Shown here piece after piece: positions 1,555-21,750 of a stretch of DNA of 64,000 nt; the first letter of the stretch is position 1; every line of letters begins with the position of its first letter. Position numbers and translations under genes: made by a program. This DNA is from Calditrichia bacterium (GTDB lineage Bacteria; Calditrichota; Calditrichia; RBG-13-44-9; J075), in contig JANQQU010000083.1 in NCBI GenBank assembly GCA_028284905.1, positions 1 through 64,000 on the forward strand. Direction: 5' to 3'. The notes under the pieces are model-generated. The model worked only from the letters and a program-made list of their open reading frames with translations. It ran no database searches and had not been told where the DNA came from.

Positions 1555-1761
1555 CTTCGCGAAATTTTCCATCCATTCATTTCCTCGAAAACATCTTTTC
1601 GGATTAAGATTTATAATTTTGTCAGATTCGACATCTCTGAATTCTCAATTTTTTATTTAAATGGTAAGGTTTTTGACGGGTGCAAAACAACGCTCCGGCG
1701 CATGTTGGTTAACAAATTGCCGGAAGATTATCTGTTGATTAAACCTACGGAGAAATTGGGA

Positions 1762-3816
1762 ATGAGTGATGAGCAACATTCACATATTCAGGATGAAAGC
1801 TTCTTTTTAAACGCCCTGTTTGAATTGGAAAACATTTTACTCGGGGACGGCGATTTTAATACCATCTGCACCAAATTTTTGGAGCAGCTAATGGGCACCC
1901 TGCTGGTAAGCAAGGGTGGTATCCTTCTCTTAGATCCGAACAGCTACGAATTAAAGCTACATCTACATAGCGGACTCCCTCAGGACCAACTTGCCGTTGA
2001 AGTCACCCAAAGCCTGTTTGAAACCATGGTAATGCAGGGCGAAGAAATATATATCATCGAAAACCCGCCGGCTCAGCTCACTCATTTTTTCCAAAAGAAC
2101 GATAATAAACTAAAAATCCTCGATTCCCATATTTGGGTACCGCTCTTTCTGCGGGGCAGCGTTTTCGGTTTTATCAGCCTGGGCAAAAAATACATGGATC
2201 AGGAATATACCGCCAATGATCTGAAAATTTTGAATATTACTGCCCGGATTATTGCCCTGTCCTTTCAAAACCAGGTGTTGTTTGATAGTATGAGACGTCA
2301 GCAAACAGATCAGACGAAGCTTACCCGGGAGATACAGGCAATTCAGGCAATGTCTTTTGTGCTGAAAATTATTCCCGGCCTAGATGAATTGCTTGATACA
2401 GTGTTGACCCAGGCATTAAAACTGCTGAATGTGCAATCCGGTTTGATCTTTCAAATCCAGCCGCATAACCCCCTGTTAAAAGTTGCTGTTTCTGAAGGGA
2501 TTTCCGATGAAAATCTGCAAAATTCCCGGGTATCCCGCAATAATAGTGCTTTGTTGACCTGTTTCCAGCATCGGCGTGGGGTTATTTTAAATAACCATAA
2601 CGACCGCCGCTTGAACAAGCTTACCAAGGCAGACCATCTACTGGCGGCGCCAATATTTTCCGGCAAAGAACTTTTCGCCATCATTGTAATGGCCGAACGG
2701 GATGCGGCTTTTGAAAAAGAGCAGTATGAAGAATTAGACTTGCAATTGTTGTCGTTGCTTTGCCGCCAGGCCGGCTTGGCAATTGAAAATTACAATTCCT
2801 ATCAGGATGTTTCCAAACACGCACACCGGCAGCAATTTTTGATCGATAATATGGCGACCGGCATCCTCACTACAACTGTTCTGGGAGAAATTGACAGTGT
2901 GAACGATGCGATGCTTTCCCTGCTTTCCTGTGAGAAAGAAGATATCCTGAATAGTCATTTCCATACAATCTTTAGTGAAGACCCGCATATCCTCGACCTG
3001 ATTCAGCAAGCCCAAATTTCCGAGAAATCTTTACATGAGCATTTTACCATCTGTCATGCGATTTCCCACGATACCCCGGTGAATATTTCCGCATCCCCTT
3101 TAAGGAATGGAGATAATAATGTCCATGGCGTTGTGGTTACTCTGGATGAAGTTCGCAATGAAAATAATCTCAAGGAAATTTTTCGGAATAAAGTGCACAG
3201 CGAAGCATTGCACGAGCTGGTCGAGGGGGAAATTCCTGTCAAACTGGATGGTGCTGCCGGGAAAGCGACGATTCTCTACTGCCAGATGAATAACCTGCCG
3301 GAGATTATCGAAGCATTAAATGCCGATGCGACTTTTCGATATGTTAATCATTTTCTTGAGAAGGCAAACCGGATTATTCTCGATGCAAAAGGCATGTGGA
3401 ATAAAACAGACCCAGAGGCAATGATGGCTGCATTTGGCATGCCTTTTACCCGGGATGACGATGCTGAACGGGCGTTGCGTACTGCTATCGAAATAATGGC
3501 CATGGTAACTGCTGAAAATGAGCTGTTGGAGCAACAAGGAATTCCATTACTCGATGTTTCTATCGGTGTTGCAACCGGGGAGGTTGTGGCCGGAGGTGCG
3601 GGCGCTTCTGTTAAAAATCAGTACCTGGTATTAGGAGATACTGTTAGTATTAGCCGTCATCTCTGCGAAACTGCCAAGGCTGATGAGATATTGGTTTGCC
3701 CCTCCACCCGTGGCCGCCTGCAAGGCAATTTCAAGTTTGACCGCCTGCGAAAAACCCGGGTGCGTCAACTGGGCACCCAGATCGAAATTTATCGATATAG
3801 TGGTGAGAAACAATAG
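1762..3816 (+). CDS. GAF-GAF-PAS protein with degenerate class III cyclase homology domain
   Basis: A 684-residue cytosolic sensor-like protein. Order of domains: GAF about 25-180, second GAF about 205-355, PAS-like about 360-470, then an adenylate/guanylate cyclase homology domain about 490-680 (signature fragments AAFGMPFTRDDDAERAL, GVATGEVVAGG, YLVLGDTV). All the positions that normally do chemistry look altered: the first metal Asp is Gln508, the second is Glu552, the transition-state Asn is Ser629 and the Arg is His633. It is therefore probably not a working cyclase but a binding or regulatory module. An in-frame ATG at 1702 would add 20 residues; I prefer 1762 because GGAG lies 9 nt upstream, while 1702 has no ribosome site. 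Stands alone. Domain identities are motif-based; loss of activity is inference. Confidence 0.85.
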   Translation: MSDEQHSHIQDESFFLNALFELENILLGDGDFNTICTKFLEQLMGTLLVSKGGILLLDPNSYELKLHLHSGLPQDQLAVEVTQSLFETMVMQGEEIYIIENPPAQLTHFFQKNDNKLKILDSHIWVPLFLRGSVFGFISLGKKYMDQEYTANDLKILNITARIIALSFQNQVLFDSMRRQQTDQTKLTREIQAIQAMSFVLKIIPGLDELLDTVLTQALKLLNVQSGLIFQIQPHNPLLKVAVSEGISDENLQNSRVSRNNSALLTCFQHRRGVILNNHNDRRLNKLTKADHLLAAPIFSGKELFAIIVMAERDAAFEKEQYEELDLQLLSLLCRQAGLAIENYNSYQDVSKHAHRQQFLIDNMATGILTTTVLGEIDSVNDAMLSLLSCEKEDILNSHFHTIFSEDPHILDLIQQAQISEKSLHEHFTICHAISHDTPVNISASPLRNGDNNVHGVVVTLDEVRNENNLKEIFRNKVHSEALHELVEGEIPVKLDGAAGKATILYCQMNNLPEIIEALNADATFRYVNHFLEKANRIILDAKGMWNKTDPEAMMAAFGMPFTRDDDAERALRTAIEIMAMVTAENELLEQQGIPLLDVSIGVATGEVVAGGAGASVKNQYLVLGDTVSISRHLCETAKADEILVCPSTRGRLQGNFKFDRLRKTRVRQLGTQIEIYRYSGEKQ

Positions 3817-3961
3817 AAAATAGAAGAGGGGGCTTCGCTTTCCTTAACTATTTACCATGATTATTCTATTGTATTCCTTCCTTTCCTTGGACTATATTCA
3901 AGATAATATTCAAGCTATCTATCACTGACTCCTCATTTTGGGGGAAATTAAGGAGGTCATT

Positions 3962-4333
3962 GTGAAAATATATTATCATCCGCGCTTAAAGCAGTTCTCT
4001 CGCCACCTGCGGAATAATAGCACACTCAGTGAAATCAAGTACTGGAAAGCCGTAAAAGGTCGAAAAATTTATGGATATCAATTTTTGCGACAAAAACCAA
4101 TCGGGCATTATATCGTTGATTTTTACTGCAGTAAATTAAAATTGGTGGTCGAAATAGATGGAAGCAGTCATATTGGTAAAGAAGAATATGATCTTAAGCG
4201 ACAGAATTATCTGGAAAATCTCGGATTAACAGTTATGCGTTTTGATAATCGTGATGTTCGAGACAACCTGAATGATGTAATCCGCCAGATTGAAGAATAT
4301 ATTCAATCTTTTGAGGAGGGGAAAGCGGATTGA
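3962..4333 (+). CDS. DUF559 endonuclease-fold protein
   Basis: A 123-residue protein of the DUF559 family, which has the Vsr/PD-(D/E)XK-like restriction endonuclease fold. Recognisable pieces are the N-terminal ARR-type region (LRNNSTLSEIKYWKAVKGRK), YQFLRQKPIGHYIVDFYC, and the likely metal-binding VEIDGSSH. The start is GTG at 3962, five bases after a perfect AGGAGG; the upstream in-frame TTG at 3938 lies before that site and is rejected. Family members are usually solitary and of unknown biological role. The gene is followed within 30 bases by a large inverted repeat, which may be linked to it. Confidence 0.88.
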   Translation: MKIYYHPRLKQFSRHLRNNSTLSEIKYWKAVKGRKIYGYQFLRQKPIGHYIVDFYCSKLKLVVEIDGSSHIGKEEYDLKRQNYLENLGLTVMRFDNRDVRDNLNDVIRQIEEYIQSFEEGKAD

Positions 4334-4501: not shown

Positions 4502-7500
4502 TCAATACCCCAAAATCGGCGATAACCAGCGCTCGGCGACAGACAGTTCCATCCCTTTACGACGGGCGTAGTCTGCAACTTGGTCCCGGTCGATTCTGCC
4601 AATACCAAAATAACGTGATTCCGGATGCGCAAAATAAAAGCCACTCACAGAAGCTGCCGGCAGCATCGCAAATGATTCCGTTAAACTGACGCCGGTGCTG
4701 TCCGTTGCTTTTAGCAGCTCAAACAGAATGCCCTTCTCAGTATGATCCGGGCAGGCCGGATAGCCGGGCGCGGGACGTATCCCCCGGTAGGATTCCGCAA
4801 TTAATGCTTCATTCTCAAAGTTTTCATCGGGCGCATATCCCCAATGTTCCTTCCGTGTTTTCTCATGCAGCAATTCTGCGAATGCTTCTGCCAGACGATC
4901 AGCCAGTGCCTTGGTAAGAATGGCGTTATAATCATCATGATCGGCTTCAAATTGCTGCACAAGTGCATCGATGCCAACACCGGCGGTAACAACAAATCCA
5001 CCAATGTAATCCGCAACGCCACTGCTTTTCGGAGCGATAAAATCCGATAAAGCCATGTTGGCGCGGCCTTCAGCTTTTTGGCTTTGTTGGCGCAGGGTAT
5101 GCAGTACGGTCAATACAGTTTCCCGCTGATCATCCGTATAAACCTCGATATCATCGCCCACGCTATTGGCCGGGTAAAATCCGATGACCGCTTTTGCTGT
5201 TAGCAGTTTTTCCGCGATGATTTTATCCAGTAATTGCTGGGCATCATCAAACAGCTTTTTAGCCTCTTTGCCATATTTCGGGCTTTCAAAGATGTTTGGA
5301 TACTTCCCTTTCATTTCCCAGGCGTGGAAGAATGGGCCCCAGTCGATCCGGGAACGGATTTCTGCCAGAGAGAAGTCGTCCCAAACTTTTGTTCCCATGA
5401 ATCCCGGACGAGCGATATTGGCAGCTGCCCAGTCCGTTTTGAAGTGCTGCTCGCGCGCGCGTGAGATCGGCAACAGTGCTTTTGAGCCATGACGGTTCTT
5501 GTGCGCTGCACGCAGCTGCTCATATTCCTGGCTTAACTCGGCAACATATCCCGGTTTCTGGGAGTCATTCAAGAGATTACTGACAACATTAACACAGCGG
5601 GAAGCATCCAATACGTGGATTGACGGTCCGGAATATTCCGGGTCAATTTTCACCGCGGTATGTGCCCGGGATGTTGTTGCACCGCCGATAAGCAGCGGAA
5701 GATTAAAATCCTGCCGCTCCATCTCTTTCGCGATGTAAACCATTTCATCCAGTGATGGGGTGATTAAGCCGCTAATACCAATGACGTCAACATCTTCCTC
5801 CTGGGCAGCCTTCAGAATTTTATCTGCGGGCACCATCACCCCAAGGTCGACGATTTCGTAATTGTTACAGCCGAGCACGACGCCAACGATGTTCTTCCCG
5901 ATATCATGCACATCGCCTTTTGCGGTAGCGAGCAATACTTTACCAGCACTGCTTTTATCGCCGGATGCTGCCTTTTCTGCTTCCATATACGGGGTTAGCT
6001 GAGCAACGGATTTTTTCATCACCCGGGCGCTTTTCACGACCTGAGGGAGAAACATTTTCCCGGAACCGAAGAGATCACCAACAACGTTCATTCCATCCAT
6101 CAAAGGGCCTTCGATGACAAGCAGCGGGCGCTCATATTTCTGGCGGGCTTCCTCGGTATCTGCTTCGATGTAATCGACAATGCCTTTAACCAGCGCATGC
6201 TTTAATCTTTCTTCCACACTGCCGTTACGCCAGGCTTCGTCGGCTGTTGTCTTTTTGTCTACGGCTTTTACCGTTTCGGCAAAATCAACCAGTGTCTCCG
6301 TGGCTTCCGGATTTCGGTTGAGCAGCACATCTTCCACATAAGTAAGCAGTTGATCAGGAATCTCTTCGTAAACGGTAATCTGCCCGGCATTTACGATGCC
6401 CATATCCATACCAGCCTTAATGGCATGGTAAAGAAAGGCGGAGTGCATAGCTTCCCGCAGTGCATTGTTCCCCCGGAAGGAGAAGGAAATATTACTAACG
6501 CCGCCACTGACTTGTGCGCCCGGTAAGGTTGCCTTGATTTGCCGGGTTGCTTCGATAAAATTAACGGCATAGTTGTTATGTTCTTCGATGCCGGTGGCGA
6601 CGGCAAAAATGTTTGGATCAAAGATGATATCATTAGGAGAGAAGCCGATTTCTTTTGTAAGAATGTTGTAAGCGCGGGTGCAAATTTCCACCTTACGTTC
6701 GGTGGTATCCGCCTGACCGACTTCATCAAATGCCATCACAATAACGGCAGCACCATAGCGGCGAGCAAGTGTTGCCTGATGTTTAAAGACTTCTTCGCCT
6801 TCCTTCAGGCTGATAGAATTGACAATACATTTCCCCTGGGCGCATTTCAACCCTTCCTCAATGACCGACCATTTCGAAGAGTCCAGCATTAGCGGAACAC
6901 GAGAAATATCCGGCTCGGAGCCGATGAGATTGACAAACTTTTTCATCGCCGCTTCGGAATCGAGCATGCCTTCATCCATATTGATATCGATAACTTGTGC
7001 GCCGTCCTCCACTTGTTTACGGGCAACGGAGAGGGCTTCTTCGTATTTCTCCTCCAGGATCAGGCGGGCAAAGCGGCGGGAGCCGGTAACATTGCATCGC
7101 TCGCCGACATTAACAAAGTTGGAATCCGGGCGAATAACCAACGGTTCCAAACCACTAAAGGAGGGATATTCGGCTACTTCCGGTACCTGGCGAGGTTGTT
7201 TACCTTCCATCACTTTTACGAGCTCCCGGGTGAATTCCGGGGTGCTGCCGCAACAGCTGCCGATGACGTTGATAAACCCACTGTCAGCAAATTCACTAAG
7301 CAATTCGCCCATCTCCTGAGCGGTTTGATCGTAGGCGCCAAATTCGTTTGGCAAGCCGGCGTTGGGATAGCAGCTAACATACAACGGGGCAATTTTCGAA
7401 AGCGTTTCAATATAAGGGCGCATTTCGGTTGCTCCCAGGGCACAGTTGATGCCGATGCTAAGCAGCGGGAATTGTTTAACGGAAATCCAGAATGCTTCCA

Positions 7501-8188
7501 GTGTCTGTCCGGAAAGGGTGCGCCCACTGGCATCGACGATGGTAACGGAAAGCATTACAGGAATAAATTTGCCGGTCTCGCTAAATAGCTGATCGATGGC
7601 AAACAATGCCGCTTTACAATTAAGTGTATCAAAAACAGTCTCGACGAGCAGAATGTCGACCCCGCCATCAAGCAGACCGCGTGCTTGCTCATAATAGCCA
7701 TGGCGAATTTCTTCAAAGGTAACATTGCGCAGGCCTGGTTCATTGACATCAGGGGAAAGAGAGGCCGTACGATTTGTTGGCCCAAGGGCACCGGCAATGT
7801 AACGGGGCTTTCCGGGATGCTCTTTTGCATAAGCCTCGCAGGCCTCGCGGGCAATTTGGGCGGCCTTCAGGTTCATTTCATAAACCAGATCGACCATATT
7901 GTAATCTGCCAGAGATATACCGTTGGCATTAAAGGTATTGGTTTCGATGATGTCCGCACCTGCCTCCAGGTAAGCGGTGTGGATTTCCTTGATGACATCC
8001 GGGCGGGTAATCGACAATAAATCGTTGTTCCCTTTTTGGTCGCCCGGATGATCGGCAAATCGTTCGCCACGAAAATCTTCTTCCTCAAGGCGATAGCCCT
8101 GAATCATAGTGCCCATGGCGCCATCGAGTACTAAAATGCGTTTTTTTAATTCCTGATATATTGGATGACTGTCAAATTTATTGGTCAT
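4502..8188 (-). CDS. metH: Cobalamin-dependent methionine synthase
   Basis: Transfers the methyl group of 5-methyltetrahydrofolate to homocysteine through cobalamin; cytosolic. Full length at 1228 residues with all four modules in order: homocysteine-binding barrel (GAMGTMIQ near the N-terminus, zinc-site GSCCGST near residue 315), pterin-binding domain ([13 protein letters not shown] about 360), cobalamin-binding domain ([20 protein letters not shown] about 765, containing the DxHxxG histidine that ligates cobalt) and the AdoMet reactivation domain ([14 protein letters not shown] about 1150). Start ATG has GGGAGC about 9 nt upstream. Monocistronic by spacing, convergent with the DUF559 gene and divergent from the VWA gene. 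I looked for a cobalamin or SAM riboswitch upstream and did not see one. Confidence 0.98.
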
Positions 8189-14465: not shown

Positions 14466-15071
14466 TTAAGAAATCGGATTTTTCAGCAGATTTTTTTTCA
14501 GGCGGGAGAGGGATACTTCCGTTATGCCGAGAAACGAGGCGATATGATACTGGGGAATGCGTTGCAAAAGATCCGGGTGTTGCTCAACAAAATGAAGATA
14601 GCGTTCCGCAGCTGATTGTTGCAGTAAACTTCTCGCCCGTAATTCTTTTCGAACCAATAACCATTCGGCAAGCTTGCGTCCCAGCCGGTCATATAAAGGA
14701 TCCTGATCAAACAATTGGGAAAAATCCCGGTAGCTGGCGGCAAGTAATGTGGTTGGTTCAAGCGTTTCAATACCATACATTACCGGTAGTTCCAGCACGG
14801 ATGCAGCTAACGGACCGGCAAACATGTCCGCACTGATGAAGGCTTTATTGGATTCTCCCCCGTCCTCTGTGGGATAATAAAAACGGAGCAGTCCTTCGCT
14901 GACGAAAATCAAATCGTACACTTTATCGCCGGGCAGCAGGATGTGATGTTGCCGGGGGAGTTGACGAAGCTGGAATATCGCTGTTAGCTTCTCCCATTGC
15001 CCATCGTCAAATTCAACCCACTGTTTTAGTGCATCTCGCATTTGGCTATATTCATTTGAACTGTTTCTCAA
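14466..15071 (-). CDS. Crp/Fnr-family transcription regulator
   Basis: About 201 residues: an N-terminal cyclic-nucleotide-binding-type beta barrel (LPGDKVYDLIFVSEGLLRFY) and a short C-terminal helix-turn-helix (IPQYHIASFLGITEVSLSRL). It lacks the Cys residues of FNR-type iron-sulfur proteins and a full cAMP pocket, as do many Bacteroidota-type Crp proteins of unknown effector. Start is uncertain: a TTG at 15071 has GAGGA five bases upstream and is preferred; an ATG at 15041 has no visible ribosome site. Only 39 bases separate it from the upstream NmrA-type gene, so the two are probably co-transcribed, which suggests this regulator controls or senses with that reductase. Confidence 0.9.
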   Translation of the reverse strand: MRNSSNEYSQMRDALKQWVEFDDGQWEKLTAIFQLRQLPRQHHILLPGDKVYDLIFVSEGLLRFYYPTEDGGESNKAFISADMFAGPLAASVLELPVMYGIETLEPTTLLAASYRDFSQLFDQDPLYDRLGRKLAEWLLVRKELRARSLLQQSAAERYLHFVEQHPDLLQRIPQYHIASFLGITEVSLSRLKKNLLKNPIS

Positions 15072-15110
15072 TGTTATCCTCAAAATTTTTCGATCAAAGC
15101 GTGATATCCT

Positions 15111-21566: not shown

Positions 21567-21653
21567 AGAATTGCCTCGGAAATGATTTGCAGCTTCTGGC
21601 AAAATATTCAAATGCCAATCAACTTAAAATGTCAGATTGCTACTAATAATAAA

Positions 21654-21750
21654 AGCCAGGTAACCCCACGGCACATAGACTGACCACCTACCGTTGCTTC
21701 CTTCCGGACCTGGCGGGGTTCGGCGGGGTACTATTGCGTGGGACCTGGCT
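21654..21750 (-). ncRNA. ffs: Signal recognition particle RNA, small bacterial type (4.5S)
   Basis: The minus strand contains the invariant SRP domain IV motif CAGGTCCGGAAGGAAGCA, here within a stem-loop, and the ends AGCCAGGT / ACCTGGCT pair to close one long hairpin of about 97 nt; TTTT follows as a terminator. It lacks the Alu domain of the long Bacillus form. It lies just upstream of dnaX, the same place as in Bacillus subtilis. End points are set from the closing stem and are good to a few bases. Confidence 0.95.

Follow-up and report, generated by a model that had tools for sequence, protein, structure and literature searches.

The DNA analysed here, referred to as the window, takes up positions 1 to 64,000 of an 81-kb contig from a Calditrichia genome of 8.55 Mb. 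Near its start lies a forward-strand gene for a protein with a class III cyclase homology domain (CHD) in which all four catalytic positions are changed, hereafter the pseudo-cyclase. The longest open reading frame runs from 1702 to 3816 and encodes 704 aa, and a second ATG at 1762 gives a protein of 684 aa with the same stop at 3816. Because a GGAG sequence at 1749–1752 stands 9 bases 5′ of the second ATG and the N-terminus of the orthologue described below aligns at this position, 1762..3816 is the likelier gene, in agreement with the start chosen in an earlier note on this DNA. Residue numbers are counted from ATG 1702 throughout, and those of the earlier note are lower by 20. The domains recognised by Pfam are two GAF stretches, one PAS domain and Guanylate_cyc (PF00211), in the order GAF-GAF-PAS-CHD, which bears out the earlier statement that the fold marks and the GAF-GAF-PAS front are kept. 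All on the forward strand, GAF domain 1 covers 1807–2301 (about residues 36–200, with approximate borders), GAF domain 2 covers 2377–2793 (about 226–364), the PAS domain 2830–3153 (about 377–484), a linker 3154–3246 (485–515), and the CHD 3247–3798 (about 516–699). The Guanylate_cyc match reaches 51.5 bits, where the cut-off is 21.9, and that of the orthologue 31.1 bits.

The orthologue is encoded on contig JANQRS010000011.1 of the Calditrichia MAG IP29b_bin.73 (G003), a member of the same family; it is full-length, comprises 683 aa and shares 32% identity with the window protein. Together, the two account for the occurrence of the pseudo-cyclase in 2 of 40 class genomes, the same 40 being the whole phylum set. 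No third orthologue was present in seven family genomes, several of which are fragmentary (590–710 contigs), making this absence a soft one. Searches of genome contigs returned only the IP29b_bin.73 protein and those of viral contigs none, and no dead full-length relative beyond the two was found in 385 genomes of wider kin, where each of five other matches reads intact. Contigs of IMG/VR, which may be phage or mis-sorted bacterial DNA, are themselves rich in this domain, with at least 584 confirmed class III cyclase domains (including L168–L247), some of them on contigs longer than 100 kb.

In each of the two genomes, the pseudo-cyclase converges with metH, the gene for B12-dependent methionine synthase (4502–8188 of the window, reverse strand). 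The upstream neighbours differ, being a DUF819 gene here and two POT-family transporters in the orthologue's locus. G005 shares with G003 a radical-SAM UPF0004 gene and a POT transporter ahead of metH, and has a NUDIX gene before metH; no pseudo-cyclase was seen near metH in G005 or G002. As the two genes are convergent and the pairing was not seen in G005 and G002, the adjacency looks like plain synteny and not function, and gene context, with its differing upstream genes, revealed neither an operon nor a partner. Between the pseudo-cyclase and metH lies a DUF559 gene (3938–4333), and the corresponding stretch of the orthologue's locus has no ORF of at least 150 aa. Just past the DUF819 gene, positions 1484–1543 hold a terminator-like inverted repeat with 16-base arms, a 28-base loop and a T run behind it, which is absent from a consensus terminator scan that takes loops of 3–8. 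Further along the window, a bacterial small SRP RNA is found at 21651–21750 on the reverse strand.

According to the earlier note, both metal-binding Asp residues and the transition-state Asn and Arg had been replaced (its Gln508, Glu552, Ser629 and His633), a claim with which both kinds of alignment agree. MAFFT alignment with 15 intact CHDs (eight from the same genome, seven from elsewhere) and phmmer comparison with four cyclase sequences of the PDB place the same residues on the catalytic positions, namely Gln528 (3283–3285) at metal Asp 1, Glu572 (3415–3417), a conservative change, at metal Asp 2, Ser649 (3646–3648) at the Asn and His653 (3658–3660) at the Arg. In neither alignment was a register shift seen that would restore the catalytic set, and misalignment is rejected as the cause of the apparent loss since the two give one register. 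Wherever these positions are visible in the class, they hold Asp in 124 of 127 and 127 of 129 domains, Asn in 125 of 128 and Arg in 126 of 128. The orthologue carries Arg, Tyr, Gln and His instead, so that the substitutions themselves are not retained and only His653 is held in common. The description of the protein as a conserved pseudo-cyclase thus stands in so far as the sole orthologue found is dead as well, and falls with respect to the substituted letters; judged from the alignments, deadness is conserved between the two proteins and the letters are not. In class III enzymes, both metal Asps are provided by one chain and the remaining residues, including the Asn and Arg, by the other (PMC12264004, PMC4886424). 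With both half-sites broken, a working site should arise neither when the protein pairs with itself nor when it pairs with an intact cyclase.

The rarity of this state emerges from a census of one class, which took in every PF00211 hit from its 40 genomes, 132 in number after removal of L032, a domain that does not belong to the class, and of six duplicate copies and two secondary fragments. The 15 intact domains supplied the profile used for scoring, and 'intact' was defined as Asp-Asp-Asn-Arg, so that retention of these four residues by intact domains is true by definition. The full set is present in 119 of the 132, and one domain each has a single change, with Glu at metal Asp 1 in L125 (G017) and Ile in place of the Asn in L075 (G018). 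All four residues are lost in two domains, which are those of the window protein and its orthologue, and a common catalytic loss across the class is rejected by these counts. The remaining nine are incomplete and intact where visible, six of them lying at a contig end and two (L133, L139) being interrupted by a stop or a break in the frame. The ninth, L162 (G025:C13), is a short frame inside a contig that keeps the Asn and Arg; it seems to be devoid of the hairpin bearing metal Asp 2 and is possibly a partly dead domain.

The assignment of the cyclase fold to the CHD rests on homology, because no confident model was obtained without other cyclase sequences: AlphaFold applied to the two dead sequences alone gave a mean pLDDT of 34.6 and no confident fold. 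With an input of 35 rows (the window protein, its orthologue and 33 viral-contig CHDs fetched with the intact profile), pLDDT per ten-residue block ranged from 72 to 96 over residues 521–704, except for a value of 43 at 631–640, and the full-length model was poor outside the CHD (pTM 0.36). A Foldseek search with the CHD model, whose alignment held other cyclase domains, retrieved class III cyclases, with TM-scores by target of 0.86–0.88 to Cya2 (2w01) and 0.90 to P. aeruginosa CyaB (3r5g).

With regard to ancestry, the two dead CHDs form one clade (support 100/99, stem 2.14) on long branches, which indicates that the catalytic loss is probably older than their split. The pair stands among intact CHDs at an open fork, also relative to the CyaB-type CHDs. 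Anabaena CyaB1 has the same domain order as the pseudo-cyclase. Anabaena CyaB2 shares this order and its GAF domains bind cAMP, NKFDE being the motif of cNMP-binding GAFs (PMC4411481). Whereas the CyaB cyclases are catalysts whose GAFs bind cAMP, the pseudo-cyclase has neither the four catalytic residues nor a full NKFDE motif, and the comparison is one of layout. NKFDE is incomplete in both GAFs of both dead proteins (one alignment, by eye). Outside the phylum, in genomes akin only at the rank of domain, Pfam identifies three intact GAF-GAF-PAS-CHD proteins, which match a two-row profile with E values of 6e-43 to 3e-38 across a large part of the profile. The best reading is that the pseudo-cyclase would be a CyaB-type cyclase turned non-catalytic, a descent for which architecture and the full-length profile match speak, and not the tree.

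The interpretation favoured here, with a probability of roughly 0.55, is that of a protein of CyaB layout whose CHD ceased to be catalytic, most likely ahead of the split between the two known members, and which now serves as a non-catalytic switch. The GAF and PAS domains would still sense a signal and, via the linker, move the paired CHDs, and the dead CHD dimer might be read out by a protein partner, by analogy with degenerate GGDEF proteins. The step from dead domain to switch is inferred, and its specific form, a nucleotide-free protein switch in one Calditrichia lineage in which GAF and PAS drive a dead dimer that contacts a partner protein, is put forward tentatively. Pseudokinases are well known, as are degenerate GGDEF proteins, and in the latter, which belong to c-di-GMP signalling, a cyclase domain that no longer catalyses persists as a receptor or interaction module. 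As these proteins represent another cyclase family and another messenger, their likeness to the pseudo-cyclase is one of analogy only.

Class III cyclase domains with impaired sites have been described. In M. tuberculosis, the CHD-LuxR proteins Mclx2 and Mclx3 have also lost catalytic residues and an allosteric role has been proposed for them, but only some of the residues are lost and their architecture, with AAA/NB-ARC and LuxR domains, is a different one (PMC4452763). The loss is likewise partial in Rv2561, with one Asp (PMC4886424). Degenerate cyclase sites serve regulation in the heterodimers of NeoR/RGC1 and of the mammalian tmACs (PMC12264004, PMC8815786), which retain one working site built from both chains, whereas in the pseudo-cyclase neither half is complete. 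The open-access literature, in the parts available, thus yields partial losses and regulatory heterodimers, and no case was found there of a class III CHD with all four catalytic residues lost in a GAF-GAF-PAS or plain sensor protein. If the dead domain is indeed a working switch, the cyclase fold itself could carry a signal without a messenger, and class III cyclases would have a pseudoenzyme class akin to the degenerate GGDEF proteins.

The earlier note had offered two functions, ligand sensor or protein switch, of which the latter is the better half. As a sensor, the dead site would still bind a nucleotide and the protein would report its level, for which Mclx2 and Mclx3 offer a proposed precedent (PMC4452763). 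The window protein keeps the base-selecting Lys568 (3403–3405) and Asp646 (3637–3639), together with the acidic Glu572. In the orthologue, however, these base-selecting positions are occupied by Arg and Lys, so that both the Lys and the Asp are lost, and Arg and Tyr stand at the two metal sites; the proteins thus show no pocket chemistry in common. The different letters and the lost base-selecting pair speak against a conserved nucleotide sensor, and a pocket conserved in both proteins is unlikely; the sensor is considered a rather improbable account.

Whether the CHD does any work at all can be approached through its conservation. Identity to the orthologue amounts to 39% in the linker (12/31), 38% in GAF domain 1, 37% in GAF domain 2, 29% in the PAS domain and 27% in the CHD, the least-kept domain. 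Four reciprocal-best pairs of intact CHDs from the same two genomes share 44, 56, 72 and 72%, and MetH shares 72%. Going by these identities, the dead CHD evolves faster than the intact pairs (27% vs 44–72%), and its constraint is therefore weaker or different. These values, the long branches of the pair and the loss in both proteins of 19 of the 43 columns shared by at least 75% of intact CHDs would suit a passenger, that is, a decaying remnant attached to sensors that do the work. Against this, the frame is open in both lineages, both proteins retain 10 of the 43 columns and the window protein alone a further 10 (4 are kept in the orthologue only), and the profile of intact domains scores the window CHD at 131 bits and that of the orthologue at 87.7 bits. 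By comparison, the best of 1000 intact domains neutrally mutated to 27% identity reached 50.9 bits, with a median of 9.4 and three free of stops, although one of the two starting domains sits in the profile itself, which favours the simulations. Because the CHD is open in both genomes and fits the profile far better than drifted copies, it does not resemble a decaying pseudogene; neither gene has stops or frameshifts, and the simulation argues against neutral drift. The frame and fold marks look selected and the catalytic site does not, on evidence from two sequences only 32% identical, and the passenger is considered unlikely. Segment 615–660 has 20 of 46 residues identical, vs 30 of 138 elsewhere in the CHD, and a gap as large occurs in 13 of 486 similarly diverged intact pairs; this better-kept segment was given no weight, having been chosen after the data were seen and the pairs not being independent.

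A further alternative to the non-catalytic switch is a dominant-negative or regulatory partner, which would join one of the cell's intact cyclases in a dimer and switch it off. Eight other CHDs are encoded in the genome, all intact, and regulation of heterodimeric cyclases by degenerate sites is known, for example from NeoR/RGC1 (PMC12264004). A matching GAF-GAF-PAS front is lacking in all eight, their front domains being CHASE2 in four, a receiver in one, a hybrid kinase with receiver in two and FHA in one, and the GAF-GAF-PAS part finds only weak matches in its own genome (23–28% identity over parts). Moreover, unlike NeoR or the tmACs, the pseudo-cyclase keeps no complete half-site, so that by the usual mechanism pairing could only inhibit; such a role appears quite unlikely.

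A still-active cyclase with a rebuilt site, for example from Glu572 and Asp570, is very improbable, for while Asp570 is common to both dead proteins and occurs in 0 of 120 intact domains, and atypical cyclases without the Asn are known (PMC4886424), the metal positions of the orthologue are taken by Arg and Tyr, and the alignment of both proteins offers no shared substitute acid for position 528.

Among the intact cyclases of the genome, L022 and L023 are hybrid sensor kinases that combine a receiver with an intact CHD on the C-terminal side and thus represent two-component/cAMP fusions. About 10 kb from the pseudo-cyclase, the window also encodes a protein with a cyclic-nucleotide-binding domain (14466–15083, reverse strand), which may serve the intact cyclases as a reader of cAMP.
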